A stretch of 64,000 nt of DNA from Pseudofabraea citricarpa (taxonomy: Eukaryota > Ascomycota > Leotiomycetes > Helotiales > Dermateaceae), in assembly GCA_029641185.1 (NCBI GenBank), contig JAPWGK010000005.1, forward strand, positions 930,001 through 994,000, given 5' to 3'. The notes under the pieces are model-generated. The model saw only the letters and a list, made by a program, of their open reading frames with translations. It did no database searches and was not told where the DNA came from. Below are positions 22,084 through 48,569 of the stretch, one piece after another. A program made the position numbers and the translations under genes. Positions within the stretch are counted from its first letter, which is position 1. Every line of letters begins with the position of its first letter.

Positions 22084-24038
22084 CTAGAGATCATAATTTG
22101 AGTTTTTTGAAGGAAGAGCCGAGCAACCAAACTCATCATCCTTTCCACCCCCTTGCATAATAGCATCTACAGCAGCTAAGTCATCTTCATAATATTTTTC
22201 CGCATCTATGAAGATATGGTCTACGCCTTCTTGCCTCTCTTCAAATTGTTTTGCATGCATATGATTTAGAATGACGAGTTTATGTTCTTTGCCACTCTCT
22301 TTTACCTCTGCATCTATCCTAAGTGCGCCGTCCACACTGAGCTCAAACCCAACTTCGATCTGCGGGACACCTTTTGGTGCTGGAGGGATCCCTACAATCT
22401 CAAAAATACCGATGGGCTGATTCTTATTAGCCAAAGGTCGTTGACCTTCAACAATAGGAATCAGAATTTTGTCTTGGTTATCTTTGATTGTGGAAACAAC
22501 AACTCTTTTGCGCGTTGGTATAACAGAATTTCGTGGGATTACGGAACGGAACAATCCTCGATTTGTTTCGATGCCAATATCTAATATGGAGACATCGATC
22601 CAAGAACAGCAATCAATCCCATCGTCATTAGTGAGAATCTGTGATTGTGCGGTAGCCCCGAGTATAACTGCTTCGTCCGATCTGGACTTTTCGAGAACTT
22701 TCTTGCCATCGAAGTAGGCCTCTAAGAAAGGCTGGATTTTGGCCGAAATCTCTGTGTTTCCGGTAATGAGGATGTGATCAACTCTGCCTTTATCTATCTT
22801 AGATTTTGTTAAGGCTTCGTCGATTAGAGTACTAGAAGTATCAAAAACTGCTCGATAGATGTTTTGTAGTTGGTCCTGTGTTATGGTCTCGGAAAAATCT
22901 CCAATTTCAATCGTAGCCGATTCTTCTGCCAACAATGTTCGCTCTGCATTTTTAACACTTGCCTCCAGCTTCTCCACTAGTTCCGGATTATTTGAAAGGT
23001 CCAGTTGGCTCTTTTCTTTGTACCGAGTTGTTGCGTGGTTAAGAAGCGCGTTTTCCAAAGGAATCCTTCCAACTGATCTATCGCTTCCACTTGACAGGAT
23101 TTCAAAGACGCCTCTATCTATCCCCAGTAGTGTAACATCAACATTCGAATCCTCTAGGTTGTAAATTAATACAAAACATTCATTGTAGCCTTGGTCGGAT
23201 CTACAATCCATCAAATCAAGACCGTATCCTATGCTTGCAGACGTTGGCTCATTCATCACTCGTAGCGTGTGAAGGCCAACTAAACTAGCAGCATCCTTAA
23301 CGGCCTGCCTCTGTTGATCGTTGAAATAACTTGGCACAGTTATAAGAGTTTCTTCTACTCTTCTGCCCAAAGAGTACTCGGCCATGTCCTTCAGCTTCCC
23401 GAAGATTTTGGCTGATATTTCCACCGGGGTGAACATTTGGTCCGATCCATCGATTTTTACTTTGACAACTGGTTGGTCGTCGTGTTCTACTATTTCGTAT
23501 GGCAAGTCTTTGATATCTTTTTGGAAAGTAGGATCGGAGAAGTTACGTCCGATTAAACGTCTAAGCAATGTTAGGTGAAAACAATCAAAGTCCTAGAGAT
23601 TTAAGACCAACTAACCTGATGTTGATGATAGTGTTTTGTGGATTATCTTTTGCTTGGTCTTTTGCTTCAAACCCTACCAGAGGTCCCTGGTCTGTGAAAG
23701 AAACATAAGATGGGACCGTGTCTCTGCCTTGGTCGTCAAGCGCAAGTTTATGCTTCCCTTGGTGACGATAACCAACGCGAGAATAGGTATCTCCAAACTC
23801 AATACCAATGACTAATTATTCGAACAATCATTAAAGGTCAGCACTACCGGAAAACCAAGTTTATCTTCCACGTACCTAAATATCCCCATTCTCCGACCTC
23901 TGGAGTACCAGAGTGCGATATGATTTGCGACACAGAGTTGGTCAAGGTTTGGATGATAGTCTCCGATTTAAGCAGGATGGCAAGAGCCAGGACTGCTAGG
24001 AAGCCGATAAAGGACAATACTCTCTTTTGTAGTAACAT
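22084..24038 (-). CDS. Divergent membrane-anchored Hsp70-like protein (BiP-related, degenerate ATPase)
   Basis: Hsp70-fold protein of 611 residues. Exons: 23876-24038, 23616-23811 and 22084-23560. The N-terminus has one hydrophobic segment ([17 protein letters not shown]), a signal peptide or signal anchor, so it probably faces the ER lumen. The nucleotide-binding domain starts [14 protein letters not shown] (usual IGIDLGTTYSCVG) and keeps [17 protein letters not shown]. However, the phosphate-2 motif DLGGGTFDV reads NLEDSNVDV, and the adenosine motif VGGSTRIP reads ITGNTEIS. The substrate-binding domain keeps [14 protein letters not shown]. The C-terminal lid is short and there is no HDEL/KDEL tail (it ends SNYDL). 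The protein is therefore unlikely to be a standard ATP-cycling chaperone. It sits just before the putative peptide cluster, but a link is speculative. Confidence 0.82.
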
Positions 24039-25396: not shown

Positions 25397-25655
25397 TTAC
25401 TCTCCATCGGTGATGTAGGTGTAACCAACTTCCCGCGGACCGCGCTTCTTTTCTGCAGTTGGATAGGTATATCCAACCTCTCTTTTGCCGTTCAGGTCGC
25501 GTTTCTCCTCAGTAGTCGAGTAGGTATAGCCAACCTCTCTTTTGGCATCTCCGTCACGCTTCTCTTCTATAATCGGATAGGTATATCCCACTTCTCGCTC
25601 TGCAAGGTTTGAATCACGCTTCTCTTCGAAAGTCGTGTAGCTGCAATCAACTTCT
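25397..25655 (-). repeat. Five tandem repeats encoding the core peptides
   Basis: Tandem units of about 50-57 bp inside the precursor gene. In protein terms the units start at residues 27, 47, 66, 85 and 101. The EVGYTY block and the EEKR block are the constant parts, while three residues after the core (PII, STT, PTA, ITD) and the 4-6 residue spacer (for example DGDA, DLNG) vary. The last unit is truncated after the core. Confidence 0.85.
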
Positions 25656-25732
25656 CTCTTAGCCTTGTTTGTAGGAGCAGCGCCAACAGCTATTGCGACC
25701 GCAAGGACAACCAAACTTTTGACTAAACGCAT
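25397..25732 (-). CDS. Secreted repeat precursor peptide with KR sites; candidate dikaritin-type RiPP precursor
   Basis: A 111-residue protein. Residues 1-19 are a clear signal peptide (MRLVKSLVVLAVAIAVGAA). Residues 26-111 are five tandem repeats of about 19 residues. Four contain an invariant EVGYTY; the first is a variant, EVDCSY. Repeats are bounded by dibasic KR (or ER/PR) and carry EEKR or EKKR after the core, so Kex2-type cleavage would release short Tyr-rich peptides. The architecture matches the UstA/PhomA/AprA class of fungal RiPP precursors, where each repeat yields one core peptide. Codons of the core vary synonymously (Gly as GGT, GGA and GGC; Tyr as TAC and TAT), so the peptide sequence is what is conserved. 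The frame is intronless and ends at TAA 25397-25399. Neighbouring UstYa-like and tyrosinase genes support the call. An alternative is a repeat-containing secreted effector or hydrophobin-like peptide. Confidence 0.8.
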   Translation of the reverse strand: MRLVKSLVVLAVAIAVGAAPTNKAKREVDCSYTTFEEKRDSNLAEREVGYTYPIIEEKRDGDAKREVGYTYSTTEEKRDLNGKREVGYTYPTAEKKRGPREVGYTYITDGE

Positions 25733-27025
25733 GATAGTGATGTTGATGAGAAAATTAATGAACTAAAGTCTGTATACCGGACAGATCTGATTGTAGATGT
25801 CAACTCAGATAAAGTCAGATGTCTCTTTTAAAGGAAGTTAACTTGCACCTCGGCTCGCTTCTTGTTAGAGCCACTGCCCTTCTTCCCCCGCACTCGCACT
25901 GCATAAAATCCTTCTCTGGAAAGCGTCTCGCTCAACACGCCGTGAAGGCGGCCCGCAACAACCCAAGAGCAATAAGCGGCATGCTCGTTCATAGATTCCA
26001 TGACGTACAACTTCGGGAGGAGTGCTGTCATTGATACGCTATGAACCAAGAATGAAGCGAGGAATTAATTTGGGTAGAAGCTTTATAGGCCAGAAAGTTT
26101 GTTTGGCGTTGTGGACTACAATTATATTACATAGTGATGAACAATTTACGTTCTCTAAAACTTCGAGTTCAAGTAACAGTTTTTCAAACCCTACCGGAAT
26201 TATACACCCAATATTTTTGAAACAAACACCCTTTCCTATAAATTTCCAGTCCGAAGTTGGAAAGCCGGAAATTGATTTTGAATTTCCTCAATACACCACC
26301 AACGGGTCGACAAATTTCTGCACCAAGTAATGACGCAGGGATGCATAATCACCTCATATTTTGCATTTCATCCTACATTTCATTGCCTTCTCGCGTGCCG
26401 CCCTCTGGTCTGCACAGCTGCGGTGACAAGATGCAAGGTGCAAGGTGCCGACTTTAAGCGAAGCGCGTGTCGCCCTGGCAAGATTAAGCGATGTGTACCT
26501 ATAGGGATTTGGTAAACCACTAGCCACTTATCCCTCACTTTTATTCCTTGTTTTACACAGATTGTAGATCCTAATATCTAGTGTCACTTTTATGTAAATT
26601 CAAATTTCAAAATTTCATCAGCCCTCATCTGCTTTGACTTTTAAAATCCAATCTTGAATCCCCACTTCTGACTGCTTCAAAGGTTGGTATTATTGTTGTC
26701 TGTCTGAGGAGGAAATACCTAGTTTAAAGTATTTACATATATATCAAATTTGAAACGATCGAATTCAAAGCTCTTGGCGTGATGTTCTTTCCTCGACTAA
26801 ATAATCATTATGATCACACCTAGATACTTGCCATGCTGGTGTCAAAAAGAAATTACCAAAATGAATTTACTGACACCATGACATTTTGGGTACTTATCGG
26901 AGAAGAGAAGGAAGCTGGAATTTTCAAGTACAATGCCCTACATTATTCAGAATACATGTGTTACATCAAAATTTTAATTTGGCCTGTTACCCGTAACATC
27001 TTGCTACTGATTTAATTTTCTACCC
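25733..27025. other. Intergenic region, precursor promoter side
   Basis: About 1.3 kb between the precursor start and the UstYa-like gene's 3' end. It should contain the precursor promoter. Small frames on both strands (for example 25828-26049, minus) have no recognisable features. Much of 26050-26900 is AT-rich. Confidence 0.45.
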
Positions 27026-27802
27026 TCATATCGCGTATAACCCACAGCTCGGAAACTGTCTCACCAACCCAGTGTTTATAAGCTCAAATGGCCTGTCCTT
27101 CCAATCGATCAACACTCGCTCGCAATCTATCGTATGTCCATATGCCGCAAGGTAGCCGTCAACTGCGGCCAACCCGAGGGGAGATATAAGTGCCCTGTGC
27201 ATCTTTCTCCATTGTAAGGTGCAGTGGCGCATGTGGTACTCATGGCTGACATAGAGGAGTTGGTATTCGCCTGAACTGGCATCATCTATGGATATAGGTA
27301 TCGTCTTATTCTTATCGAGATAGAAATCCCATTGATGGAGCCCAATAAATTCGTTAATTAGGTCCTCGTCAAAGCATTGATCAGGTAGCCAGAGAAAGCT
27401 GATCACATCGAAGCGACAGCCGCGGGCTCGTGCCTCGGCTGCACTATCGCCGCAAGGTTTTCGAAATGCGATCAGGTTAGACGACGACGACGAGGTAGAT
27501 TTCCTTGAAGCTGTGTGGGGGAGGAAGTAGAAAATGCTGACTAAAGTGGCACACAGGAGGAGTACGATAGCTAGAGCTGGTATCGTGAACCTTGAATAAA
27601 GGATGGCACTGTAGCGGTCGAGAACTCTAGACCGTGTCTGTCTCACGGCAGATGAGGATAAAAGTCCTTCATCTTCAACTATGTCTGATGAACTTCTTTG
27701 GGAGTCTCCATCCCCTCTTGCATCGTCCCGAGAAGAGAAATATTTCTCTTGTTCTCGGGAATTGGGGTTAGATGGTGGGAGAATATCTATGATATGATTC
27801 AT
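27026..27802 (-). CDS. UstYa-like (DUF3328-related) single-pass membrane oxidase candidate
   Basis: A 258-residue, apparently intronless protein. It has a hydrophilic N-terminal tail, one membrane helix at about residues 72-95 (TIPALAIVLLLCATLVSIFYF) and a C-terminal domain. That domain has CGDSAAEARARGC (117-129), FLWLPDQC, then HEYHMRHCTLQWRKMHRA (187-204), which contains the HxxHC motif (HMRHC, 190-194), and later GHTIDC (222-227). HxxHC after a single TM is the signature of UstYa-type proteins, which oxidatively cyclise fungal RiPP cores in the ustiloxin and asperipin pathways. The usual second HxxHC is HTIDC here, so it belongs to a divergent subgroup. Lying between the repeat precursor and a tyrosinase, all on the minus strand, it is the likely macrocyclase of the cluster. 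The enzymatic role is inferred. Confidence 0.65.
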   Translation of the reverse strand: MNHIIDILPPSNPNSREQEKYFSSRDDARGDGDSQRSSSDIVEDEGLLSSSAVRQTRSRVLDRYSAILYSRFTIPALAIVLLLCATLVSIFYFLPHTASRKSTSSSSSNLIAFRKPCGDSAAEARARGCRFDVISFLWLPDQCFDEDLINEFIGLHQWDFYLDKNKTIPISIDDASSGEYQLLYVSHEYHMRHCTLQWRKMHRALISPLGLAAVDGYLAAYGHTIDCERVLIDWKDRPFELINTGLVRQFPSCGLYAI

Positions 27803-29495
27803 GACGAATGAGTGTTAGAAAAGGCATACGATCAAACTAATATAAGTGCACAGGTATAGTTAATTGTACCGAGAAAGACTGTGCCTAAGTACAAGAGCTG
27901 GAACAAACAAGCCCAGGATGACATCAGAGAAATAGCATCTTCAACTTCTCTTTGCACATCCAACGTTACCTGCCATTCCCATAATCATTGCGGTCTTTGG
28001 CACGCCTAACTCGCCTCAAGATATGACGTTAGGAGCTTAGTCTGCTTTTTTGCAGCGTGACGCTCGAAGTATTGTGGGGATGGTACCAAGATTCACCATG
28101 AGGTAATGAACAGTACGTCAGGGCCTAGGAGTGGTGCTCAGGGGCAGAGTTTAGGACAGGACCCACCCGATAGGTAGCGTAGATTGCTCCGGAATTGCCT
28201 AGACTACTACTTGTGGTGCTTACTGCTTTGGTGGGGACGTTATATAACGGCGTTGTGCACTTTCCGGCCCCAGCATACCCCGCCTTACAGCATTGTTAAA
28301 GCTGCACAAGAATCGTGTGCTATGCCGAGTTATTGCTGCTTACTTTATTAGGTTTGCTCCAGTAACCTATCACTCCATGCTCTATTGCAAGGATTATCTA
28401 CGGGTATGCTTGTCGCATGCAAGGCTGAGTAATACCAGTAATAATGTATGCAGATGCTCTAGCCACGCAACCCCGCTATCTCATCTTGTTCCACAGTGTT
28501 GTCATCATGCGAAAAGTATGCTGCAATCATGGTCAAGTACTGTTTTTCTTTCGGGGTTTTCCTATGCTGAAGGATCGTAACGATTGCTTTAAATGGAGCT
28601 CGGCTAATCTTACTGGCACCTTCTACTAACTGGTGTGTACCAACCTGAAGCTTGTGCGGTCAAATATCTTAGTTTTCGAAGATGTGTATTATATATCTCC
28701 GTAAAACCTCTGTTCCTTTTCGCTTGTGAATATGGAAGGACTATTTTGAGGAAATTACCGAGAGTATCAGAGTAGCCTAGTAAAGTCGAACCAAACCTCC
28801 GTGTATCATGCCATACCTTCACATGGGAAAATAAACAATTTCGGGAAATGCAATCTTGTCCGGACATATAGTGTACCAGAAATTTGAATATCTATCTTGC
28901 ATGGCACCTCGGTTACAGCAACTGCAGCAGATTTCATTGCGGTACTAAATCTAGATGCATGCATTCAAACCAGCTGGAAGGAAGATAGAAGGCATCGGTT
29001 AATCTTGACCCGCTTAATTTGTACTTCACACAGGGGCTTGGTATCTATTGTGGAATAAAAATCAAACGTGTAGTTGGCGTTATATGTGCTTGGTAGTATT
29101 TGGAGGCTCGGTCACTTGGTCTGGTGATGCTATAGTATACGTGGTTCGTATTGATTAACCATAGTTTTATGCTAGATATCACTGAAATATTAAAATGAAT
29201 TCATTTCGATCGATTGTAACTTTTTCTCTCTGGGCTATTGAATTACAGGGTTGGGAGTTTGAGAGCAAAAGGGCGATCAAATGATGTGCAGGCATTAATA
29301 CTTGCGATGGAAACTGTTAATTTATCTTGAATGAGATGAATGGATGTAAATGCTCATTTTGGGATTGAATTTCCAGATATGTTTTCTTCATGTTGCTAAA
29401 TGTACCCATGTTCAGTGAGATAAAATATATTCAGGACTCTTCTCGTGACTCGTGTTGCATTGCTCTCCAGCCAAAATTTGTAATCATTCGATCAC
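27803..29495. other. Gene-free region inside the peptide cluster
   Basis: About 1.7 kb without a supported gene. Frames such as 28293-28580 (plus) and 28610-28867 (minus) have no recognisable motifs; a second UstYa-like gene, usual in such clusters, was looked for and not found. The region from 29000 on is AT-rich. Confidence 0.45.
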
Positions 29496-30745
29496 TCAAT
29501 AGGTATAACATAGAAGTTCAGACTCGGTACTCATAACATGCCTGACAGCCAAGTCTGGCCCAAGCCCAAGCATTGGTAAAATATCATCTAGAGAGCTAGG
29601 CTCTTTGGACTCCCCCTCTTTAGGGCCATTATAAGCCATTGCTCCCTGAGGTGTATCTCTCTGCCACATCCACCACAATCGGTCTACTTGGGCATGGTGT
29701 AGTAGAAATACGGGATCTGAAGGAGTAAGTATCTAGCTAAATACCCAAAAGACAGCTCTACTCACCATTTGGTGCCTCAAAAAGCATAAAGTCGCCGCAG
29801 ATATTATTTGGTAAAGCATTGTGAGGCCCAACCTCCAGCGCCATAGAAAAATCAATGAACATTCTTTTTTCGAAAGCGCTCTCTATGGCACTTGGTGAAA
29901 AGTCTTCGCCTGCGAAGCGAGCTGGATAATCTTGTCTTCCAAACCCGCGCGAAAGACAGTGCGGTTTCGCCGTTTTATTATTCCAATAAACCTCGTAGCC
30001 CACCAAAGGTCCTTCTGCAACACAAGTACCCCAACGTATGCTTTCATCTCCCCCAGAAGTGCCGTCGCCACCGAAGCCAGTTTGAGGATCCCATATAGGC
30101 GATTTGGCTGGCTCTTCCCAGTCTAGGGTCCAATCCCAATATCTAAGCACTTTTATTAATCAGTGCATTCCATTATTTGTGAGTATCTCTTACGGTAAAC
30201 TTCCTTGATATCCACAAGAATTGCGGAGACTTTGTTCATATATATGAAGAAAATATCGATGCCATGGAAGAAATGGCGCCGCGTAGTGGGCTAGAACTTG
30301 TCAGCAAGATTTTAGTATCTTGACACACTCATAAATGTCACTCACTGATTTCCCCAGTGTGTTTGTGAACCCATGGAAAATCATCTGATAAGTGACCTTC
30401 ACCAGTGACCATTGACGGAAGCTCGTGCAAACACTTGATGGCAGATATGTATTCGGCCTTTTCGTCGTCGCTTAGCTGCCGCCATTCCTGCCGCCGTCTT
30501 GGCTCCAAACAGGGCGAGGAAGAAGTGGTCTTTGCTTTTTGATTTATCTTGCTATGAACGAGCAGACCAAGTGATGTTAAGATTAAGAAACCTACGACAG
30601 CTGATATTACAGTAGAAAACCACGATCTCCATCGTTCTGAAAACCTTACAACTCGATCATCTTCAACGTATGGGAGGTCGTGTTCGGCTTCGAACAACTT
30701 GACAGCAAAATATCGGGAGTGGGGACTTTTCCGTGTGAGCCACAT
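29496..30745 (-). CDS. Membrane-anchored tyrosinase-like copper oxidase (UstQ-like)
   Basis: Binuclear copper oxidase of the tyrosinase family, 364 residues. Exons 30346-30745, 30194-30290, 29766-30142 and 29496-29716 sum to an exact frame. One membrane helix lies at residues 42-63 (WFSTVISAVVGFLILTSLGLL). The domain begins CLEPRRRQEW, and CuA ligands are likely H127, H135 and H144 (THYAAPFLPWHRYF). PYWDWTLDWE follows. CuB has GPHNALP (H273) with Pro where HxxxH tyrosinases have the second His, then DPVFLLHHAQVDRLWWMWQ. From memory this GPHNxxP...GDF form is usual in fungal UstQ-like proteins. In ustiloxin biosynthesis UstQ takes part in oxidising the core peptide. Here the single TM and position next to the precursor and UstYa-like genes suggest luminal oxidation of the Tyr-rich core. 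Confidence 0.85.
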
Positions 30746-31686
30746 AGCAAATTAGTTTCTGAGTAGATTGGAGTTTCAGAATGAGAAATATCACTTGAAC
30801 AATAGCACTAAAGAACCATGAATGGGTTACCAAGAACGCAAGAATGCAGTTATGCAGAGTTGTACAGATATGGTATACGAGGGAATCCTGCCGCACAATA
30901 AGGGCGTGACGCTGGCACGTCGTCAGATCGTCTGATCTGAGAGTTTTCACACAAGCCGTCGTACTCGGAAACGTGTAGAAAATCAACGGGATTAAAGGAA
31001 GGTAGCTCTGACGATAGCCAAGGAGACAAGTAAGGTGGAACCTCGGAATGAGGGCGGCACCACATACCTTACATACCATGTCATTGGCTCACAAACCTTT
31101 GGTGCGTTCTCCCCCGTAGATATTTCGTTGAGATAATCATGTTTACCAATCTATCGGTTTGCATAAGCATAAGCATCGGATTCGGAACATGGACCTATCA
31201 TGGTCTGTAAGAAGTACCTAGGTCGGTAAGTTCGTCGCTGCCAAGGCGGGAGCTGGCGAGGGTGTTGCGAGCTTCGGCACTAGAATTCAAAGGCATCGTC
31301 ATGCGGCATTCGTAAGTGCTACAAAAACGCCTTGGTACTGCTTGAAGATCAGATAAACATGGTTCTCACTTGTGTCAGCACTATATAGGGAGTCCAATTA
31401 GCCTTATCCGTGCCGTTTGGACGCATATCCTTTATCCGTCTTATCTCACCATGATCTGCATGCATATCCCACTTCTACCCCTCTTAACTGTGCCATGAGA
31501 ATGCATAATCTTCCTCTATCGGTCTTATCTAGCTATTATCTAAGGCGTCAGAGTGCATATTTTCCCTTTGTCTATGGACAGCCAATGTACCCCTATGATA
31601 TTTGTTTCCAACCCCTCAGACAATGTAAACATTTCCACTACTTACTGAATTAAAATTTTCTCTGGGTATAATTGAACTTTAGTACT
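30746..31686. promoter_or_regulatory. Divergent promoter region between tyrosinase and regulator
   Basis: A 941-bp head-to-head intergenic region. No gene is supported in it. It is the natural place for binding sites of the adjacent Zn2Cys6 factor, which usually binds CGG-type triplets, but I identified no convincing site by eye. Confidence 0.45.
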
Positions 31687-33912
31687 ATGAGTCCTAGTAA
31701 GTATTGATGCAGTGCAGTAATCTAGTGACTATTTTGACCGACGGATTGTCTTCAGCTGGAGCGAGCTCCCAGCTAAGGAGCACAAAAGGCTGCTGGACCT
31801 GCAGACTGCGAAGAAAGAAGTGCGACGAAACCCACCCGGCGTGCTTGATATGCAATTCCCTCGAGCTTGAATGTCAAGGCTATGGCCCAAAACCATACTG
31901 GATGGACCGAGGCCCCCTTGAGCGAGATGAGGCCGAAAAAGTCAAAACTAGAATTCTCAGAAGGTCTCAGAAGCGACGTCGTCGTTCAGGATCGACTGGC
32001 TTCACAAAATCCGATCATAATGGAGGTCCAATATCGCAAATGGAATTCTGCGATTCGGTACATCCCACATTTCCAAGCAGCAACCTATTTACTCCGCCTT
32101 ATTCACCAAACTCGATAGCTTCTATGAATCTGGATTTTTTCCCACTGCCTGCTCCAATTGGGAGTTTTGAATCTTATACAGGCCTTGAAAAACCTGAAAA
32201 TTTTGATTTTTCGGGCTCTCCCTCTTCGATGGGCAGTTTTGGTATGATCTCCGAAATAGACAAATCAGAGTCATCAGAAGGTCTATTCGCGGAAAATATA
32301 TTACAAAATGCTGAAACCCAGTCCCGAGATCAAGAACAGCGCAACAATTTCGAGGATAGTTTTGGCATAAAACAGCATAGGCAACCAAACCTTCCACAGA
32401 TAGTGCCCTTTTCAACCAATACTTTGAAGGCACAAAGCATTTTCCAGGATTCGAACTTCTCGAACCCGACATCGATCGCGAGGAAAGAGTCCTCTGATGA
32501 TTGTGAAACCGGATACCATTTTCAGTGTTCGCCTCCCTCAAGCTTGCATAACTGCTCAGTGCATGACGAGGCACTTATAACATTCTATCTGGACCAATTG
32601 TATCTCCTCCGCTATCCTTATTGTGATATGGGGTCTGATAACACAAGAAACCGCGACTTCTTGCAACTTTTTCTCTTTCGCTCCTCAATTACTAAGAGAT
32701 CTATTATTGCTCTGAGCACGGCCCACCAAGTCTTCAAACAGAATCATACCATTCGATCAACAGATGAAATTTACGAAGACCATGTTCACGTCGCAAGGAA
32801 CCTCTTTTCATTGGCACATATGCCGATTGAAAACTTAACCCTTCTAGATGAGGCAGATAAGGCATTACGGGTGACAGAGATGGGCATATGCCTGCTGCAT
32901 CTTTTGCTTCTGGAGGTAAGTTGCCTTTTTGTTGGCTTTATCCCAGGGTTCATATAGGAACATAAACTGAATTTTGTGTCAAAACCAACAGTCTTTCCGT
33001 GGTATTATAGGAAACTTTGCGGCTATTTTAAGAAATGCTGCCCCTTACGTACAAGAATTGGCATACTTGACATCGCAAAACCGAGACGAAACACGTACGG
33101 TGGAATTTTCATCTGACAAACGTGTTTCTGAGATGTATTCTGAGGTATCAAAATCTTTATTACGATCTTTTGTGTGGCATGATATCCTCACAATAGTGTC
33201 TAGTACGCATGGGTTTCTTTCGCTGGATATAAGCCACCAGCTACTCTTGCAGAAGGACACACTTTTGATGGAACACTCTATAGGGTGTGAGAATTGGGTG
33301 CTTATAGCAATTTGCGAGACACATAACCTGCGACAGTGGAAAAGGGAAGCAGAAACGTCAAAAACATTAAGTGTTCTTGAACTTGCCAACCGTGGCAATG
33401 TGATAGAGCGTCGTCTTCAAGAAGGGCTAGAATATTTAAGAGAGGAGGGAAACCACTCACAGTCAGTAAAACCGGCGGAAGATACAAAACTTTCATCAAC
33501 CGTCGTGTTCCAAATGCTTTCAGTTGCCATTCAGAAGGATGTCACCAAGATCTTTGCACAGGCAGCTTTACTCTACCTGCACGTTGTGCTGTCCGGGCCG
33601 AATGCTCAGCTACCCGAAATCCGACGAATCGTCTCGCACACATTAAAGTTATTCCAAATACTAGGCAGAAGGATTCCACTGTTTAGAGTCTTGTGGTGGC
33701 CATTGTGTCTTGTGGCCTGTTTTGCCTCAGGCGATGAAATGCCCTCATTTGAGAAACTTATGACGGAAGTGTTGAGCTACGACAATATGTTAGGAATTGG
33801 TTCAAAGGCTATGCAGGTTGTGAAACAGTGCTGGAAGACACGACGAGATGGAAAGGATTGCGAGTGGGCCATGGCTATAGAGAGCCTAAGGGGCGACGTT
33901 TCAATCTGCTGA
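31687..33912 (+). CDS. Zn2Cys6 transcription factor, likely regulator of the peptide cluster
   Basis: Nuclear regulator of 696 residues. Exons 31687-31696 (10 nt), 31756-32915 and 32992-33912. I chose the start at 31687 because the tiny first exon encodes MSP and splices to TGASSQLRSTKGC, a common N-terminus for this class. An unspliced start at 31704 would add a non-homologous leader. The zinc cluster GCWTCRLRRKKCDETHPAC then LIC and LELEC gives C-x2-C-x6-C-x6-C-x2-C-x6-C, followed by QGYGPKPYWMD and a basic stretch RRSQKRRRRS (nuclear signal). A Ser/Asn-rich linker and a helical C-terminal fungal TF region (LYLLRYPYCDM, LLLLE) follow. It is divergent from the tyrosinase, fitting a pathway-specific regulator. 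Confidence 0.85.
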
Positions 33913-36734: not shown

Positions 36735-39568
36735 ATGGATTCAATTACGACCCCAGCGACTCCTCAAGTCGTTGAAGAAAAACGACCTTACGATGAGAAA
36801 AAGAGCTCTGTTGACATTGAAGTCAACTCACTTGGAGCTTCCGAGGATCCATATGACGATGCTAACAAAATCTATGTTCCCGCGGACGACGAAGAGTACA
36901 TTGACCCTCGCCTGAAGAATTATCCTATTCCGGTAGTTGCAAAAACAGTTGATTTACACAATGATTTTAAGTAAGATCCTCTGCTTCCCAGTCTGTATGG
37001 TAACGTTTCTCATCATTCTCAGTGAGCCAATCCTTACTTTCCGATACTTCTTCCTCGCCACCTTCTGGGTCGTCGTCGGTTGCGGTGTCTCCTCATTTTA
37101 CTACTTCAAGCCTTATCAAATCAGTTTGACCAGTTATGCTGTTCAACTTCTTTCATGGGGCATGGGTAATGCGATGGCCAAGTACTTGCCCAAAACAGAA
37201 CACAATATCTTCGGCTACAGATGGAGTTTCAACCCGGGTCCATGGAATGCGAAGGAGCACGCCCTTATCGTTGTTTCTTACTGGGGATCTGTAAGTACAT
37301 GCAGTCGCTTTGTATCTTGTTCTGAGAGGGGCCTTGAGGAAGACTAATTTATGTTATAGTGCTACACTGCTTACGGACTCGGCCCTTTGTCTGCACTGGA
37401 GCTCTATTATGGCAAGAAAATGAATGCTGGTTGGGGGATTCTCTTCCTTATTACAACTCAAATGATTGGGTACGGGTTCGCGGTGAGTTTGTTTGTGTGT
37501 GAAGAATCGGGAGCAACACTAATTTGTTCAGGGCCTATTCCGTGACATTCTTGTTAGACCACCAAAGATCTATTGTAAGTACCTCCATAGAGAATAAAAT
37601 TATGCCCACAAAAAAAAAGTCACACGGAGCTTTTGTAATGAAAAAGCAGAACATATAAGGATTTTAATTTGCAAATATTTACTAACTGCAACTCCACCAT
37701 TAGACCCCCTTACCCTACCGAATGTCGCTCTTTTTAATGCAATGCACCGTAATCCAAGTGTTACTGCGAACTCACTCAAATTCTTCACATGGGTTGCAGT
37801 TGCTACATTCGTTTACCAATGGTTCCCATCATTTATCTTCCCTATGCTTAGCTCACTGCCTCTGATTTGTTATATGGGGCACGGGAAATGGATCGCATAT
37901 TTGGTTGGATCTGGTTACAATGGATTCGTAAGTAAAGGCAATGATCTTTTTTTAGTCCAAATACTAAGATATCTAGGGTATTTTGAATCTTTCCCTTGAT
38001 TGGAATTATGCTGGCTTCTGGGGGCCGTTTTATACCCCCCTTTGGGCCAATGCCCACCATATCGCTGGTGCCATGGTTGCCGTCTGGGGCATTTACCCAA
38101 TCATGTATTTCACTAACACCTTGGACTCTTTGAAATATCCTCCTATGTCTTCAGGAACCTTCGACGACACAGGGAGCAGATATAACACGTCGAGAGTTCT
38201 GAATCCAGATTTCACGCTCAACCAAGCTGGTATGGATGCGTACTCTATGCCGCACTGGTCCGGTTCATATGCTATGTGTAAGCTTCATCATTTCGCTTTT
38301 ATTCGAGACAGCTTCTAATATCATAGTTTAGATTTCTTTTGGGGCTTCGCATCCTCAACGGGTGCTCTTGCATTTGCGATTTTGTGGTACGGAAAATCAT
38401 CCTGGATCTCTATCAAGGATGCCTGGCAGAACAAGCGCAGTGACTATGATGATCCATATCTCAAGCTCATGGATCGCCTCCCACGTGTTCCGCATTGGTG
38501 GTATCTTACTTTACTGGTTATTTGTGCTGCACTTTCTTTCGCTCAGTTGTACGGCGGAGAAATGCAACTTCCGTGGTGGGGATTTATTATCATTGCTGTT
38601 GTATCAGCTATCTCGACCTTTCCAAACGGAATGTAAGTTGTGCCCAGTTACCTTCAAATATGAAATGGAAGCTTGATTAAAATTGTCGCTAACCCGTTAC
38701 CCGCAGCTTGTTTGGAATCGCTAATTTCCAAGTCGGTATGGCTTTCCTCTCTGAAATAATTGCTGGAGCTCTTTTCCCTGGAAAGCCCGTGGCGGTCTTG
38801 ACATGTATGGTATACGGACGACAGATCCTCGAGCAGAACCTCAACCTGGTCTCGGACTACAAATTCGGCTTTTACATGAAGATCCCAGAAAAAGAAATGT
38901 TCATCGCCCAAGTCTACGGGACATTACTGGGCCCATTTATCAACTACGGTGTCATGCGGTTGATCATCGACTATATTGGAAAAGACACATTAACTGGAGT
39001 CGTCAAATCCACCGCATGGAACGCGCTGAAAACGAAGAACTTCTACTCCCTCAGTGTGCTGTGGGGTATTCTCGGCCCAAAGGTTTTCTTCGGCGAGGGT
39101 TCGGATTATGCTTGGATCTACTATGCCTTTCTAGTTGGTCCAGTTCTGGTCGTTTTGACATATATCGTGCATTGCTACAAGCCGGAATGGAATGTCGAAC
39201 AACACTGCAACCCGGTTGTTTTCATGTACGGTGCTTCATTGTTCCCAGTATACCAATCTGTCAACATCTTTACCTCTGCTCTGGTCTCATTCTTCTTGTA
39301 AGTTCCTATATCTCCCACAAATCAAAGGATTAAGGCTGATATACTGTTTAGCATGGGGTACGTGTATAGATTCCACCCTGTCTGGTTCCGGAAGTACAAT
39401 TACCTACTCGGAGTCGGCTTGGATTGTGGCAGCCAAATTATGCAGACTTTCTTGGTCTTTGGTGTTAACTTGCCTAATGCTTATATGCCTAACTGGTGGG
39501 GTAACAATGCGGATGCTCCAGACCGTTGCTTCGCTCCTTCTAGCTTGCCTCCGAATGCTTTGAACTGA
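36735..39568 (+). CDS. OPT-family oligopeptide transporter
   Basis: Proton-coupled oligopeptide transporter of the plasma membrane or an internal membrane, with many hydrophobic helices spread over at least nine exons. The charged N-terminus (MDSITTPATPQVVEE) leads to DPRLKNYPIPVV and EPILTFRYFFLATFWVVVG. Family landmarks are FNPGPWNAKEHALIVV, FRDILVRPPKIY, SGYNGF, DWNYAGFWGPFYTPLWA, YGRQILEQN and the C-terminal YMPNWWGNNADAPDRC. Splice joins agree with the family order, and total length is about 750-800 residues, normal for OPT. It lies 2.8 kb downstream of the cluster regulator on the same strand. A peptide transporter next to a peptide pathway may move precursors or product, or may simply be a nutrient transporter. 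Confidence 0.9.
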
Positions 39569-41161
39569 AGGGAAGATGAATGTAGATTAGATAGAAGTAG
39601 TTAATATCTCCAAATATATGCAACCATGATATCTATATAGTCGGATTTATGAGTAATGAAATGATCCAATTATTTGAGATGGCTCTTTTGTCTATATTAG
39701 TCTTACTCTACTGGTGTTCACAATGTAACAGAGGTTTATGTCTGTTATGGGAGACATGAGTTACATATAATTGAGCAGTTGAATTTCTTCCAAGGCTACG
39801 TTTTGAGAGAGATTCTTGTGACTCCTTATCAAACTTATATAAAATCGCAGGTTGAAAGACATCGAAGTATAATATGAGGGCCGGCTGCTGCATATGTTCT
39901 GTATTTATTTCAAGAGCAGCTCAGGGTTGGATGATACTAATACCAATTTATTTTGCTGAAGAATCCTTAGAATCATGATTTTCTAGGAATCTATCGACTC
40001 TTGAATGAGCTTTCTGGATGGAAATATGCGAAGGATTATAGTGACTTCTAAAATTTGAGTTCTTGGTGAATGCTACTCATAGCTAGTAACACACCTTTCG
40101 TTATAGCATCATGTAGGTATTATAGCTTAGTAACTACCTAGTATATTAGAAGCACGTGTAGACGCCTGTAATAATTGAAAAGGTTTAACTACTTACTGGA
40201 GTTGGCAATTCCGATGCGATCTCTTCAATGAAAATTTCGCATCACATGTAGTTTGGTGCACCGAGCTTTATTTGTGTTCGGATAAGTACCTCGCAAAGTC
40301 TTGCAAAATCTTGCAAAACTTTGCAAAACTTTGCACAGGATCTCAACGCCGTAGCTCGCTTATATGACCTGTAGTCAGCCTTTATCATGGCACATATGGG
40401 CATATGAGATGATGATGTCGAGAGAATCGGGGAAGAAATTGTAATTGGATGTCTCAAATTAGACCCTTGAAGGAATTTGAAGTATATATTGCTATGGCCC
40501 GACTGTGATATCTCTTGATCCAGAGTTTCATCATCATAACTCAAAAGTTTCCTCAACAGTTCCATAACGTTTCTAGTACGTCGAACTTAACAGAAGGAGC
40601 GAAAACAAGTAATAAGTGTATCTAGTTTACAAGGCAACGAACTCACAAGTACGTCATATTTGCCCTTCTGGTAGATTACCGGGTTGTGAAGGTATCATAA
40701 TCCTTGAGGTATGTAAAGCATCCATCTTCAAGAAACGAGGAGTCTAAAGTGCTGAAAGCTAATGTCCATCAGCATTATTTAGGAGTTACCAGTATGACTG
40801 CTAGCTCTGGAGTATCGGGGTTCTGTGGCAATTCCCGTTGCAGGCACGCGAACAATGAACACAATTACGAAACCTGCAGAGCCTCGAAATGCAGAAAAAA
40901 GTGGAAAATATGTCAAACAATGAGCCATGACATTCAGCTAGGGAAACATCGACCAAGTACGCCATATGCAAAAAGTGTGAGGAGCACCCTGCCGGCGGAC
41001 CTGATGGATTTGAAGACATGTTGGATTTAACATGATTTATTCCTTTTTGCAAGAATAGCTGTCAGGCAGAAGAAGGGGAATAGTGGCTCAATTATTTTGT
41101 TTTGTTAGATCTCGTTAGCTTCTTCCAGAATACAGAATACGTGTGGCCTTATTAGTGCATT
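39569..41161. other. Gene-free region containing a decamer array
   Basis: About 1.6 kb with no supported gene. The left kilobase is AT-rich. The 10-bp repeat array at 40291-40335 is listed separately. Frames at 40242-40565 (minus) and 40704-41030 (plus) look non-coding. Confidence 0.45.
40291..40335. repeat. Left decamer array, consensus TTGCAAAACT
   Basis: Four and a half consecutive 10-bp units: TCGCAAAGTC, TTGCAAAATC, TTGCAAAACT, TTGCAAAACT, TTGCA. The same unit in the same orientation recurs at 43338-43377, on the far side of the 666-residue gene. Confidence 0.8.
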
Positions 41162-43162
41162 CTATGTGTTGTCTACACCAGAATACCATCCTGTCGTATG
41201 CTGTTCGCCTAGCCATGTTTCTATTTGCTGTATATCCACAGTTTGACCAACCTCATCATCACTAGTCACATGCTCTTCCTCTCCCTCCGACTCGTCGAAG
41301 TCGAGCCAGGAATGACAATAGATCTCCTTCTCGGACTTAGCCCAGCCAGAATTGCGCAACCACCCGAATATATTACGTGTTGCGTTCTCCGATAGCCTTT
41401 CATCCTTAAGATGCATCTTTTCATGTAGATCTACGTGAGAATTATTAGTCTCATCTAGGCTCATGCTCTCATGGTTTCCATTAACAGTGAAGCCCGGGTC
41501 TTTCAACATTGTTCCATCCTGTAGAATCCAGGACCAATTGACATACTGCAAGTAGTGTCCCCTACAGTCCCTGTGTTTCCGAACTTCGATCTCAGTATCG
41601 CATAATCTTGTATTTCCAAAAGGCTTCCACGGGCAGATTGGAGGCCGAATATGTCCCTCGGCCCCTGCAAAGTAGAGCAACCGGCACTCGTCTGCACGAG
41701 ACATCTCTGCATCATTATTTCCGCATGGATTTTCAGATTTGAGGCTAATAAACGAATGCGTAGTAGCTGTCCACGCAGAGGCATTCAGCTCGGTTGCCAC
41801 TAATCCTGATCGAATCCATTGAAATATAGGGTTCGCCATTCCACTGACAGCAGCCCCCATCCACAAAGCAGCTAATTTAGGCTCCCTTTTCCCCATTATC
41901 GTAGCAACCTTCGCCAAATCTCCTGCCTTAAGCAGAGGGTCAAGAATTTCCAGAATTGGTTGAAACCAAGGACTGACAAGATTACAAGAAACACGAGGAT
42001 CGAAGAACGAACTGCAGAGGACAGCATGCATCCCAGGCCTGTTGCAACTCAAACTCATATAATAAGGAAGAAGCTTGCTTTCACTAAAGACTGCCCCTTC
42101 CCTTTTGTCGAGACCGATAAGGGAAGAATGTAGACTGGTTGGCGAAGACAGATTCGGCAATGGGAGAGTAACACCCCTTTCGCCAAGGAATGGAAAAGTT
42201 AAGGCTGCAGCCAATGCTACAGAACATTGATTCTCGAGGTGGTGAAACATACTGAAATCAGAGAGATACTTTATAGCTGCTTCGGATGATGGTGGGGACA
42301 GAGGGGTCTTGCCCATACGCTGAGTGTTTGTGGACCTTCGTATCCTGAATCTCTGCGTAGTCTCTATGGAAATTGACCAAGGGGATCGGAAGATGCTGCC
42401 ATTTCGAGCAACTTCTGCACGCCAACCTTCCCCCGCGGCTAGAATTGCGGACCACCAACGCGCTGCCTCATCGTTGACGTCGCCGAGATCGACTTCGAGG
42501 TCTCCTGGCGACTCTTTGGCACAGCCATCTATCCATCCAGCCCCGGCAGACAAATAGAACATGCGTTCGTTGTCATTCAGGGAGACATGCTCTGTGATGT
42601 CGGGTTTCTGCATCTCCATCCAACGCGCTGACAAAATATACGCCCAAGCAAATGCCAGGATAGCAAGGCAGTTGCCCCCAAGAGTATCCCTCTCGTGTCC
42701 AATCCCAGGCCACCTGAAAAAGCACGACCTACTGACGAAATGGCATGGCGTTGACCGTTGGACGCCCAAGAGTAGCTGAAGCGGAGTTTCCTTATCCATG
42801 AGATCACACTTGGCTCTACCTGTGCTCCAGGTCGATTGTCCGCTCACAAGTAACTCTGCTTCCTCAGAGCCCCTTTGCTCTAGCTTGAAAGCAAGACTTC
42901 CTCTGCGTTGCGTGAATCCGTGGGCAAGATATGCAGGAGCTCTGCCAAGGATACTTCGAAGCTGAACGTGAGACGGCTGAAGACCATCTTGATCGGTCGC
43001 CTCATCCAAGTAAGAAGACCAAATCCTATAACTTCTTGCGAGCATACGCCGAGTTTCCGTCTTGCTGGCGCGAACAGCATCTTGCATTTTCAGGCACAGG
43101 ATCTTCGAAACTCTGAGGACGATTGAAGCTTCGGAATTCGAAGACAGCTGAATGTTGGACAA
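41162..43162 (-). CDS. Large orphan protein, 666 residues, function unknown
   Basis: A single uninterrupted frame of 667 codons, unusual here because nearly every other gene of this size is split by introns. The product is soluble, with no signal peptide or membrane helix. Trp- and Cys-rich blocks include PLQLLLGVQRSTPCHFVSR, GGNCLAILAFAWAYILSARW and PWSISIETTQRF. It ends in an acidic tail (DFDESEGEEEHVTSDDEV). I do not recognise a catalytic domain. From memory, similar intronless proteins recur as multicopy hypothetical families in Pezizomycotina, but I cannot confirm this. Decamer arrays on both sides and a second orphan gene starting divergently 220 bp away suggest an accessory or mobile module. 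Confidence 0.75.
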   Translation of the reverse strand: MSNIQLSSNSEASIVLRVSKILCLKMQDAVRASKTETRRMLARSYRIWSSYLDEATDQDGLQPSHVQLRSILGRAPAYLAHGFTQRRGSLAFKLEQRGSEEAELLVSGQSTWSTGRAKCDLMDKETPLQLLLGVQRSTPCHFVSRSCFFRWPGIGHERDTLGGNCLAILAFAWAYILSARWMEMQKPDITEHVSLNDNERMFYLSAGAGWIDGCAKESPGDLEVDLGDVNDEAARWWSAILAAGEGWRAEVARNGSIFRSPWSISIETTQRFRIRRSTNTQRMGKTPLSPPSSEAAIKYLSDFSMFHHLENQCSVALAAALTFPFLGERGVTLPLPNLSSPTSLHSSLIGLDKREGAVFSESKLLPYYMSLSCNRPGMHAVLCSSFFDPRVSCNLVSPWFQPILEILDPLLKAGDLAKVATIMGKREPKLAALWMGAAVSGMANPIFQWIRSGLVATELNASAWTATTHSFISLKSENPCGNNDAEMSRADECRLLYFAGAEGHIRPPICPWKPFGNTRLCDTEIEVRKHRDCRGHYLQYVNWSWILQDGTMLKDPGFTVNGNHESMSLDETNNSHVDLHEKMHLKDERLSENATRNIFGWLRNSGWAKSEKEIYCHSWLDFDESEGEEEHVTSDDEVGQTVDIQQIETWLGEQHTTGWYSGVDNT

Positions 43163-43337
43163 CCTCCTGGTTTAGGCTTGCATATATGACCGGTCGATCA
43201 TCAAGAACTTGTGTTTACAATGTACCTAGGTAGGGATGAGAAAAAGAATGGAGTACGACCAACCATAGGGCGCAGGGGCGGCAGGGTCCGAGGTGCTTGT
43301 CATCACGTGGTTCCAAACCAAAGTCCCGCGTAGCAGG

Positions 43338-43377
43338 TGCAAAACTCTGCAAAACTCTGCAAAACATTGCAAAATCT
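43338..43377. repeat. Right decamer array, consensus TGCAAAACTC
   Basis: Four consecutive units TGCAAAACTC, TGCAAAACTC, TGCAAAACAT, TGCAAAATCT end six bases before the start codon at 43383. It is a direct repeat of the 40291-40335 array, about 3 kb away. Confidence 0.8.
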
Positions 43378-43382
43378 CTCAA

Positions 43383-44405
43383 ATGGCCCCACGTCAGCCC
43401 CTTACCAAGCAGTTACTCCTCGAATTGCTCGAAAAGGAGCGTTGCGCATTCACGGATCGATACGAGGAGTTGCTTGTATCCCAAGAAACTGCCCTGAAAA
43501 AGGCCGAGGCGGTTGCAAAGCCTGTTCATGACGGACGGAGGAATGCTTCCCGGACAAAAGCATCCGCAATCTTGAATGACATACGGAATCGCACAGGACA
43601 CGAGGTGTTTATTCTCACAGCGTTAGCTACATGTCCATCGCAACTAGGAGCATCAAGACTCGATGATTACATCCCAGCCATCACGTCCTGGTGGAACGAG
43701 GTCAATCACCCATACGGCCTGAGTAGACTAGCAGAACTACGCTTGGCCACACCCCCTCAGGAGAAAGGTATGGACGAGCAACAACATACACAGATAGAAC
43801 CAAACGCTGACGGTCAAACCTTGAAGCCTCTGAAGTACCGTTGCCTACCTATCAGACCAACCAGCAGACTTCTCAGCATACTGATGCTGGCAATGCCACT
43901 TTAAAACAACAACCATTCTGCTCTAGTTTTCTGGTCTCTAGCTTTCTTAATCCGAGCAAAGATAAGGCATCGTCCCCACAAATTGATGGGGGCGAGGATC
44001 GAGCCCAAGATGAACGACCTTCAAAGCGTGTTCGCATAACTTCACCTCCAGCCCTCGGCATGTAAACTGGAGTCAGAACTTTTTTGCTTTCTGAACTGAC
44101 TTTGGACAGGAACTCCATCGATGCGAGAAGGAGATAAATATATTCCTTTCACATTCACCAGTCGCGATACAATCGAAGCTCTTCCTGAGCCATTTCGGAC
44201 TGGTGTGAAGACAAGCAATTTGTGGAGTTCAGAGAAGCACAACGCCTTCAATGTCACCAATTCCTTATCCTTGTATATGCCAGCTATGTATAAAGCGGAT
44301 GGGTTCCTTGTAATTCGCGTTGGGTTTGATCAGAGCTTCAACATCTTAGAGTCACTTGGTTTAGGAGATGTCCCGTCAGTTCCGCCAAACGGTAGCAGAT
44401 CATGA
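43383..44405 (+). CDS. Orphan gene, exon structure unresolved
   Basis: The start at MAPRQPLTKQLLLELLEKER opens a helical, charged region (about 43383-43840) with no recognised domain. Coding appears to continue in a second frame at about 43927-44065 (FLNPSKDKASSPQIDGG then PSKRVRITSPP, nuclear-signal-like). A plausible GT...AG intron joins these two. A third block at about 44121-44405 (MREGDKYIPFTFTSRDT) is in yet another frame, and I could not find a splice that reaches it cleanly. Either an intron is mis-seen or the gene is frameshifted. The decamer array lies in its 5' leader. The gene faces away from the 666-residue orphan. Function unknown. Confidence 0.4.
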
Positions 44406-45865: not shown

Positions 45866-47837
45866 CTAGGAAATCTTGCTTCGTTCACGAGCGAATAATC
45901 TGACATTCAACGGAGGTTTACTCCACAAGACGTAAACCTTCTGCTGATCCCAATTAAGCGAATCGGGCTGTAGTTCCATGTCGAAATGCCAGATGAGTCG
46001 GGCCATGATGGAGCGCATTTCAGCAAATGCCAGGTTCTATTTGGAGTGCACATTTAGTCCTGACTAACCGATATATCGAAAGGACAAGAGAAATATCTAT
46101 CACCTTTCCAAGACAGCCTCGCGAGCCGATGGCGAAGGGCTGTGATGCAGCAAGATCATCATTACCATATCGACGCGCAAATTTATCGTTGGTAGAGTAT
46201 AGTGATGTAGGGTACTGTGCTGATGTAGTTGCTCCATCACTAGCACGCAGCTCGTTTTTCAGCCAACGTTCTGGCACGAATTTTAATGGGTCTTTAAAGT
46301 TCCGTGCTGATCTTCCTGTGCTGAGCTGGTGCATACTGACACTAGTCTGTCGTGGGCGAGAACGTTAAAGCTTGAAATCTTTCAGCATGGAGGGGAAGGC
46401 TATTCAACTCACATTGCCAGGTACAAAACGCCCATCAATAATCATGCCCTCTACAGGGACCTGACGAGGGAGGCCACAGGGTATCGGGGGATATAAGCGC
46501 AAGGCCTCTTCGATGCACGCTTGTAGATAGGGAAGTTCTGAAACTGAGGTAAAAGTGATGGCAGATGGGGAGATGAAGGCTTGCCGGATCTCCTGTTGGA
46601 GTAGCGTCAAAACACGGGGTGTAGAGTGAAGGTGGAAGATGAGGCCGCTGAGGAGTGTGGCAGTACTTTCGCTACCGGCGATTATCAAACAGCCTGCGTT
46701 TGTGATTAATTCTTTTTCGGACATTTCTTTTTTGTCGTTGTGGCGCAAAATAGCTCTGAATTGGCAAGTCAGTACTGTGGTGATAGTGCCATCCAGCAGA
46801 AAGAACCTCGCGTGTAATGAGAAAGTGACGCTGTTAATGATCAACCAACTTACGCTGTAATATCTCGACGATCTGTCTGCATCGACAACCTACTCAACGT
46901 CTTATCTCGAATAAAGTTGCGAAATTTATCCTTAGTCCTCACAACCGCTGGAAGCCTAGCCAAAAGGGAGAAAATCCACCCTCCAAAAGGCGCTGTCATA
47001 TATTCCTTCGCAGTTCTAACCAGAACACCAATTTTAAACCCATTGAAAATTGTGGACATCCACCAGTGGTCTTCGCCCTTTTCTAGGGCATGGAATGATT
47101 CGCCGAATGTGAGATCACCGATGATGTCGAAGGAGGCAAAATTCAGCCAGGCTGCTATATCTACAGTTCCTGATGCTTGGCCTTGATGAGAAAGTCTCTG
47201 AATGAGTAGATCACAGTAGCTCGTGATGATAGTCTCTTGTTCGCGTAAAGCGGCTTCGGAGAAGGCATGTATCATAACCCTTCGCATTCGAGCATGATTT
47301 GCCTCATTTGATGCTGAATTAGAATTAGTATTGCCCCGAGGCACCCAACTGGAAAGGCATCAGCTCACCAATAATGTTTTGAGTTCTTTCAGGATCTACA
47401 TAGAAAAATCGGGGATCTCTCTCTAAGTTTTGGTGGCCTTTGCGATATCCGTAGATGTCTGTCTTCCGCTCTGATTAGTTGTACTCTGTAAGAGATTTGT
47501 AAATTGAGTAAGAAGCATACCTCGCCATGCCTGAGAACTGTTGAAGGAGAGCTCATTGGGTGTTATTCGCACAACAGGCCCATACTTCTCGTGTAACTCC
47601 AATGTTCTGGAGGCTGAGTTACCAATGCACAAGTCATAGTACGCCGGCAAGATTGAAGCTCCATAGATAGTTGGGCCAGGGAAACTAGCTAATGGGTGAA
47701 ATGTGACATTGTATATTGCCCTTAAAGTATAATATAGAGTACCCTTCATAAGTCAGTAGGTTCTCTTAGCTGATATCGAGACGTACCAAGATAACCACAG
47801 TGGTGGCTATATCCGAAAGCAACGCGAGCACTTCCAT
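45866..47837 (-). CDS. Cytochrome P450 monooxygenase
   Basis: ER-bound haem monooxygenase. Seven exons keep frame: 47787-47837, 47521-47743, 47369-47458, 46855-47313, 46413-46755, 46104-46346 and 45866-46036. The N-terminal anchor (MEVLALLSDIATTVVIL) is followed by HPLASFPGPTIYGA and LHEKYGPVVRITPNELSF. The I-helix has IIAGSESTATLLSG, the ExxR is EEALRLYP, and the haem loop FAIGSRGCLG contains the Cys ligand. From memory the pattern resembles fungal isotrichodermin-15-hydroxylase-type P450s of secondary metabolism. It has the same orientation as the ABC exporter upstream and could tailor the polyketide made by the PKS at the right edge, though about 10 kb separates them. Confidence 0.88.
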
Positions 47838-48569
47838 GATGGCTGACGTGACTTTCGACTCGGAACTCTGTAAAAAAAAAACTCCTCAATAAACACCTCT
47901 GGCTTTCAGTAACATAGTAGCTACAATTTGTCAATTTACTATTTGGTGGGCGAGACAGATGCTACGAGAATTGGCGAGCTCGGAGACTTCGACAAAACTT
48001 TCCGCCGGCGACTTTGTGCAGAAACGCCATTGTCGATCCAATGATATAATACGACAAAATGATATCAAAATAGCAACAAATTATTTCCATCCGAGCGAAT
48101 AATTTCGAGATGGGAATACCTAAATGAGCCCGTGCTCAGATACCAACTAATGAACTCGCCGCTGGGAGGCAAAAAGGGTGGACAGATTACGGAGAAAAAA
48201 CAAGGGGGAGGGAGAGGGGGGAGGGGAGGTCAAAGTTTCGCATTTGTTAAAAGATATGCAAAATCAGTGATAATGTGACGATCCGAGAATTAAAAAAGCA
48301 ACATTAGGAAGGAGAGCGAGTCATTCTACAGATATGGCTCATTTGATGACGTCGCAGTCATACAAAATTATGCTTCTCGCTTCTCTCGCTTAATTATCGT
48401 GAGCCCCTTTTAATTTACGTCAATGCTCCCCTCCTTCATTGAGCCCCGCAATGTGGAAGCGTTAGCGGACCATTTTAAGAGGGCAAATTATACCCGCAGG
48501 TAACATGTGAAGAAAAAAAATCTAAGATACCATTGAGGAGCTCTTTCGTGTATTTGATGATCTTCAAAT
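47838..48569. other. Intergenic region with a purine-rich tract
   Basis: About 730 bp without a gene. A G-rich low-complexity tract occurs at about 48200-48230. It should include the P450 promoter and the ABC transporter 3' flank. Confidence 0.5.

Follow-up and report, generated by a model that had tools for sequence, protein, structure and literature searches.

A probable compact dikaritin-like gene cluster in Pseudofabraea citricarpa with a candidate UstYa-type enzyme outside PF11807

Five dikaritins, a class of fungal ribosomally synthesized and post-translationally modified peptides (RiPPs), had been characterised by a 2022 count (PMC10512285). The DUF3328/UstYa (PF11807) enzyme has been called class-defining for them, and an S41 peptidase is not present in all known cases (PMC12048977). 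The UstYa-family protein CctR forms a dimer, spans the membrane once and exposes a domain to the lumen; its two HxxHC motifs together bind two copper ions (PMC12435403). The Y-x-I cores of ustiloxin and phomopsin are cyclised between Tyr and Ile, and YVIP is the phomopsin core, though it occurs in other genera too (PMC7329392). Clusters without some of the UstYa, S41 and methyltransferase genes are known, asperipin-2a being one example (PMC6514808). Here we describe a locus in a 64,000-nucleotide stretch of the Pseudofabraea citricarpa genome (the window; positions 930001–994000 of contig C39, in an assembly of 44 Mb and 43 contigs). Judged from its sequence, the region at 25.4–39.6 kb of the window is probably a compact dikaritin-like RiPP cluster whose sole UstYa-type enzyme lies outside PF11807.

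The original prediction placed genes for a precursor, an HxxHC protein and a tyrosinase in a row on the minus strand, with a divergent regulator gene on the plus strand; all four were found where it had put them, and in that orientation. The precursor gene (25397–25732, minus strand) encodes 111 amino acids and is, as predicted, of the secreted repeat type, with seven Lys-Arg (KR) sites, five core segments and a hydrophobic, signal-peptide-like N-terminus, the signal peptide being judged by hydrophobicity only. It has the Kex2-flanked repeated cores of a dikaritin precursor, with two of the five lacking a KR directly before them, and no other open reading frame (ORF) of at least 40 amino acids in the window shows as many as three similar segments that follow dibasic sites. 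The cores, all read from the minus strand, are imperfect copies: core 1, EVDCSYTTFEE (25622–25654), deviates, and the other four share EVGYTY, namely EVGYTYPIIEE (core 2, 25562–25594, preceded by ER), EVGYTYSTTEE (core 3, 25505–25537), EVGYTYPTAEK (core 4, 25448–25480) and the C-terminal EVGYTYITDGE (core 5, 25400–25432, preceded by PR). KR-only cleavage by Kex2 would therefore leave cores 2 and 5 on longer peptides.

When the four EVGYTY copies are compared in all six pairs, each of the 19 differences within their first six codons is synonymous, so the peptide has been kept while its DNA drifted; extending the comparison to all 11 codons gives 24 synonymous differences and 36 in residue-changing codons, so EVGYTY is conserved and the residues behind it vary. 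Tyr occupies position 6 in all five cores, and position 8 is T, I, T, T and T in cores 1 to 5. This spacing, seen in five related copies, appears to resemble that of the Y-x-I cores of ustiloxin and phomopsin. None of the 222 candidates from a protein search with the precursor reached E ≤ 10, there is no second precursor copy in its own genome, and no GYTY core was found by a literature text search in combination with Kex2 or DUF3328. The core thus differs from published ones, as had been claimed, and is new as far as these protein, genome and literature searches reach.

The tyrosinase and regulator exon models were predicted from sequence, without transcripts. Spliced from four exons on the minus strand, the tyrosinase has 364 amino acids: exon 1 (30346–30745) encodes a membrane anchor, the acceptor of exon 2 (30194–30290) was picked from two in-frame AGs 6 nt apart, and exon 3 (29766–30142) is followed by exon 4 (29496–29716), which ends in LCYTY. 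A PF00264 match at E = 3.5e-38 and the anchor bear out its description as a membrane-anchored tyrosinase. The best 120 of 3825 protein matches include PhomQ1' of Diaporthe leptostromiformis (44% identity over 88%) and three proteins named ustQ, the best from a named source being that of Stipitochalara longipes (56%). Both C-terminal Tyr residues of LCYxY are present in 120 of these 120 matches, and the histidines conserved among them are retained in the window protein, which has the tyrosinase domain, membrane anchor and LCYxY end of the PhomQ/UstQ family. Its closest paralog in the genome lies at C42:1074252–1075362 (E 2.3e-29, with 40% identity in its best exon; E 2.0e-17 for the locus ranked second).

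That paralog belongs to a phomopsin-type cluster at C42:1060–1077 kb. The precursor there (C42:1064206–1064853; L027:4206–4853) carries 14 YVIP cores, eight YVIPFD and six YVIPID, and is surrounded by an S41 peptidase, UstYa genes, a Zn2Cys6/Fungal_trans_2 regulator, an oligopeptide transporter (OPT) and the tyrosinase. Just past this cluster is an ORF with a Tle1-like lipase domain (PF09994; L028:8868–9287, plus strand).

The window regulator (31687–33912, plus strand; 696 amino acids) has three exons, a short predicted first exon (31687–31696), a second encoding the Zn2Cys6 domain (31756–32915) and a third encoding Fungal_trans_2 (32992–33912); Pfam matches to Zn_clus and Fungal_trans_2 agree with its prediction as a Zn2Cys6 regulator. 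Three of its eight paralogs in the genome (C22:55632, C42:1010951 and C42:1065857) begin no more than 3.1 kb from UstYa-type genes and 1.6–7.5 kb from repeat precursors, one of them the YVIP precursor; the chance of finding three of eight within 10 kb of UstYa-type genes is P 6e-5. The regulator can be called PhomR-like by comparison with these genome paralogs.

Beyond the four predicted genes, an OPT gene (36858–39565, plus strand, given as the extent of homology) is multi-exon, with frame changes that fall at short intron-like gaps. Among genome paralogs, a 202-amino acid piece of it best matches the OPT in the phomopsin-type cluster (61% identity, E 6e-79), with 26% (E 4e-19) for the runner-up. 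By this paralogy the OPT gene is very likely part of the window cluster, supplying the transporter of a dikaritin cluster, and its presence in both clusters suggests a transport step. The pathway had been thought possibly minimal; it is indeed compact, but larger by this one gene. Among the papers listed by a literature search, one mentions both an oligopeptide transporter and phomopsin, and its transporter is an unrelated table entry (PMC11943440); the link may still be in print.

We also compared the window with eight regions of the same genome picked for holding UstYa-type genes. The window ORFs of at least 60 amino acids that match these regions are the HxxHC, tyrosinase, regulator and OPT genes, frames overlapping them, and four others (two ABC-transporter ORFs, one P450 and one unassigned; E 1e-6 to 2e-16). 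Gene content, repeat structure and protein families, with the Kex2 precursor, the PhomQ1' and ustQ matches and the paralogy of tyrosinase, regulator and OPT with the C42 cluster, make the dikaritin-type reading of the original prediction well supported as regards precursor, PhomQ-type tyrosinase and regulator; its PF11807 UstYa enzyme is the part that did not hold.

The protein in that place is encoded by a single exon (27026–27802, minus strand) and has 258 amino acids, with the strongest hydrophobic stretch at residues 76–94. Its first copper-type motif is HMRHC (residues 190–194; 27221–27235) and its second is HTIDC (residues 223–227; 27122–27136). The membrane anchor and first motif of the predicted HxxHC single-pass membrane protein are therefore present, and the order of motifs is that of UstYa-type enzymes, but the second motif is not HxxHC. 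An AlphaFold2 monomer model (mean predicted local distance difference test score, pLDDT, 78.6) puts the motifs on helices 187–206 and 221–233. A comparison with canonical UstYa was dropped, as the model of the latter (pLDDT 50.8) was too poor.

This protein belongs to a divergent family. A search of 5.8 billion proteins, which depends on shared 5-residue words and so has limited reach, turned up 995 candidates, of which four were homologs at E ≤ 0.001, with the best at 55% identity. In the genome there are 13 paralogs, making 14 places at seven loci, and three queries from different family members all return the same 14 places. We aligned 17 members (the window protein, three of the four homologs and 13 genomic ORFs, of which two are truncated at the end of a locus or exon), leaving out the fragment P0004. 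They have in common the signature CG..xEARxxGC, WxPxxC, HxxHC, HTxHC; both HxxHC motifs are present in 14 of 17 and neither in two, one of these being a cut exon (L018:1–648). The other member without either motif (L018:3217–4056, at C23:1775 kb) is among four places of the family within 4 kb. No description of this family was met in those parts of the DUF3328 literature that were consulted, which is not proof of its being undescribed.

A profile of the 17 members aligns with a profile of nine canonical UstYa ORFs from the same genome over both motifs (probability 66%, E 5.6e-5). With trimmed alignments the score is 35.4 (E 8.8e-5), whereas the highest of 200 column shuffles scored 16.9 (0 of 200 as good) and the reversed profile 12.9. 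Homology to the UstYa superfamily is thus detectable at the level of the family, and is strongest for 12 of the genomic ORFs (E 9.4e-6), so that the paralogs carry it. At five of the six other loci of the family a canonical UstYa gene is found no farther than 15 kb away, and at four of them within 5 kb; about 1.3% of the genome would satisfy the 15-kb limit (binomial P 2e-9 for five of six; the test used 41 of the 50 PF11807 matches, the other nine sitting within 1 kb of a used one). Local duplication from a common ancestor would mimic such co-location, which therefore shows kinship or joint function, but not which.

Repeat precursors lie 1.3 to 12 kb from the family member at four of the seven loci (the window, C22, C34 and C42:1014 kb); by scan, none was seen in the fetched stretches at C14, C23 and C39:534 kb. 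The first scan listed seven ORFs, of which five were accepted as precursors; the two rejected were a low-complexity ORF and a frame that overlaps the YVIP precursor. A looser scan recovered just one of the five and one further candidate (L026), so precursor absence at these three loci is weak evidence. The Pfam neighbours there (SET, tubulin chaperone, major facilitator superfamily, AMP-binding, acyltransferase, aldo/keto reductase, regulators, hydrolase) do not show a RiPP setting.

A number of observations weigh against a working dikaritin-like cluster. None of the 50 PF11807 matches and none of the five S41 peptidase matches in the genome is on contig C39, so that neither the class-defining enzyme nor the S41 peptidase was found for the cluster. 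No methyltransferase was found in the 26 window stretches scanned with Pfam, many of the window's 104 ORFs of at least 110 amino acids and its short exons lying outside that scan. The second motif of the window protein is HxxDC, against both HxxHC motifs in most of its aligned relatives, and changing the motif His and Cys of CctR to Ala abolished activity (PMC12435403), which makes HxxDC the main doubt about the cluster; by analogy, the window protein may be inactive, or the Asp may serve as a ligand. It falls short of the Pfam gathering score and has no PF11807 match up to an E-value limit of 10, the profile test that had been named for the UstYa label, which fails on it; what stands of the proposed UstYa relationship is distant, superfamily-level homology by profile comparison, and even that is weak when the profile is built from the window protein by itself (E 0.017) or from it and the three homologs nearest to it (E 0.013). 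In the CuB HxxxH of the tyrosinase, the second His is absent; Pro stands there, as in 89 of the 120 listed matches, PhomQ1' included, against His in 14 of 120, and we dropped the reading of a dead tyrosinase on that account. Five of the eight regulator paralogs are away from such clusters. For the precursor no relative was found, and gene-neighbourhood comparisons cover one genome, so that there is no cross-species support.

The missing PF11807 and S41 matches and the altered second motif are also what would be seen in a decayed or decaying dikaritin-type cluster, one that has lost its canonical UstYa, S41 and methyltransferase genes, whose HxxHC protein lacks a copper ligand and which makes no cross-linked product. 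We regard this as rather unlikely, given that precursor, HxxHC protein, tyrosinase and regulator are all open in the models, that the tyrosinase keeps its conserved histidines, that the EVGYTY copies differ by synonymous change only, and that the four-gene asperipin-2a cluster is described with one UstYa homolog and no tyrosinase (PMC6514808). It is also conceivable that the precursor gives linear secreted peptides of the pheromone or hormone type and that the adjacent oxidases act on something else: DUF3328 genes accompany only 22% of fungal repeat precursors (PMC7329392), and the window precursor has no found relative. The relatives of tyrosinase, regulator and OPT that adjoin the YVIP precursor in the same genome, and the greater frequency of Tyr-rich cores beside DUF3328 genes (65.6% vs 38.2%; PMC7329392), make this very improbable. 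Yet another explanation, compatible with a RiPP cluster, is that the HxxHC family is unrelated to UstYa, its motif and topology being convergent and its role elsewhere in secondary metabolism. At a limit of 10, PF11807 lines were obtained for only three of the 17 members (best E 0.12), and NCBIfam gave nothing for the 17; a Protein Data Bank (PDB) fold search with the window model gave no match at E ≤ 0.001, PDB sequence searches with canonical UstYa and with the divergent-family profile gave no credible match, and three of seven loci have no precursor by scans that are seen to miss precursors. Against this, the profile alignment covers both motifs and outscores every one of the 200 shuffles as well as the reversed profile, and the family is closely linked to UstYa genes; convergence is accordingly unlikely in our view.

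By the definition in which DUF3328 is class-defining, the window cluster is not to be filed as a dikaritin cluster; by analogy with described systems, it most likely functions like one, and its product is probably a new peptide with phomopsin- and ustiloxin-like cross-links at tyrosine. The inferred pathway, from regulation to product, is as follows. The regulator would turn on the gene set and the precursor would enter the secretory pathway, where Kex2 would cut at KR and release peptides that contain a VGYTY-type core. Oxidation and cross-linking of tyrosines would follow in the lumen, carried out by the membrane-anchored PhomQ-type tyrosinase together with the single-pass HxxHC protein. The most likely bond would join the Tyr that every core has with the Thr or Ile side chain two residues on, as in Y-x-I cores, with a bond between both tyrosines of YTY as the alternative. 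Computed [M+H]+ values for linear peptides include 1278.537 (EVGYTYSTTEE), 1129.505 (EVGYTYPTAE) and 1246.547 (EVGYTYITDGE); each cross-link would lower such a value by 2.016, and each hydroxylation would raise it by 15.995. The OPT protein would move the peptide.

Other features were seen around the cluster. An Hsp70-like ORF (22087–23592, minus strand) lies about 2 kb past the precursor, and a 669-amino acid ORF (41165–43171, minus strand) has no Pfam match at E ≤ 0.01 and is flanked by 10-bp tandem repeats (40293–40335 and 43338–43383). At 46023–63875 there is a probable separate polyketide cluster, in which Pfam finds a P450, an ABC transporter ORF and a zinc dehydrogenase, and a polyketide synthase and a Zn-cluster protein were recognised by eye in the translations. 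We excluded this region (46–64 kb) from the RiPP cluster, because beyond the ABC and P450 ORFs nothing in it matches the RiPP regions. Elsewhere in the genome, further Kex2-type repeat precursors lie near UstYa-type genes, with the repeats GYDQRALY (L025:446–1219, plus strand), AAYQYTDTPF (L019:7584–8312, plus strand) and QGIQGLHNYVTL (L013:370–798, minus strand). The candidate from the looser scan (L026:4796–5104, plus strand), a secreted-looking Gly/Tyr-rich repeat ORF of 97 amino acids near UstYa genes, may also be a precursor, and an S41 peptidase match about 8 kb from a tyrosinase match (C20:341011–349401) is possibly another such cluster.

We tentatively suggest, at somewhat less than even chances, that the HxxHC family, found at 14 places in this genome, is a second and so far unrecognised branch of the UstYa-type copper oxidases, one that PF11807 does not detect and that can cross-link peptides with a PhomQ-type tyrosinase as its only partner enzyme; in the window protein, HxxDC could form a variant centre of three histidines and one aspartate whose chemistry is altered. 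Dikaritin surveys lean largely on DUF3328/PF11807. Were such a branch to exist, RiPP surveys keyed to DUF3328 would miss a share of fungal RiPP clusters, the window cluster being an example. A cluster in which tyrosinase, regulator and transporter are of phomopsin type, and the one HxxHC protein is not seen by Pfam, would enlarge the enzyme family, add a new core and allow a test of peptide cross-linking by this divergent family.

Compared with the UstYa family PF11807, to which the copper enzymes CctR, ApnU and AprY belong, the window protein is alike in its single-pass anchor, in the order of its paired HxxHC-type motifs and in a distant profile similarity, but differs in having no Pfam match, its own signature and HxxDC; its family also ends shortly after the second motif, where several aligned UstYa ORFs continue. 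We see no defining difference between the window tyrosinase and PhomQ/UstQ tyrosinase-like proteins, and it is 44% identical to PhomQ1', with which it shares the His-to-Pro change in CuB and the LCYxY end. The small size, the one UstYa-type gene, the one transporter and the multi-Tyr core recall the asperipin-2a cluster (aprA, aprY, aprT, aprR), which differs in having no tyrosinase among its four described genes, in that AprY is a UstYa/UstYb homolog and in its core, FYYTGY (PMC6514808). From the phomopsin cluster and the phomopsin-type cluster on C42 the window cluster differs in its core, in a divergent HxxHC protein in place of canonical UstYa, and in that no S41 peptidase match was found on its contig and no methyltransferase in the scanned stretches; they are alike in the Kex2 repeat precursor, the PhomQ-type membrane-anchored tyrosinase and the Zn2Cys6/Fungal_trans_2 regulator, to which the C42 cluster adds the OPT that it has in common with the window.

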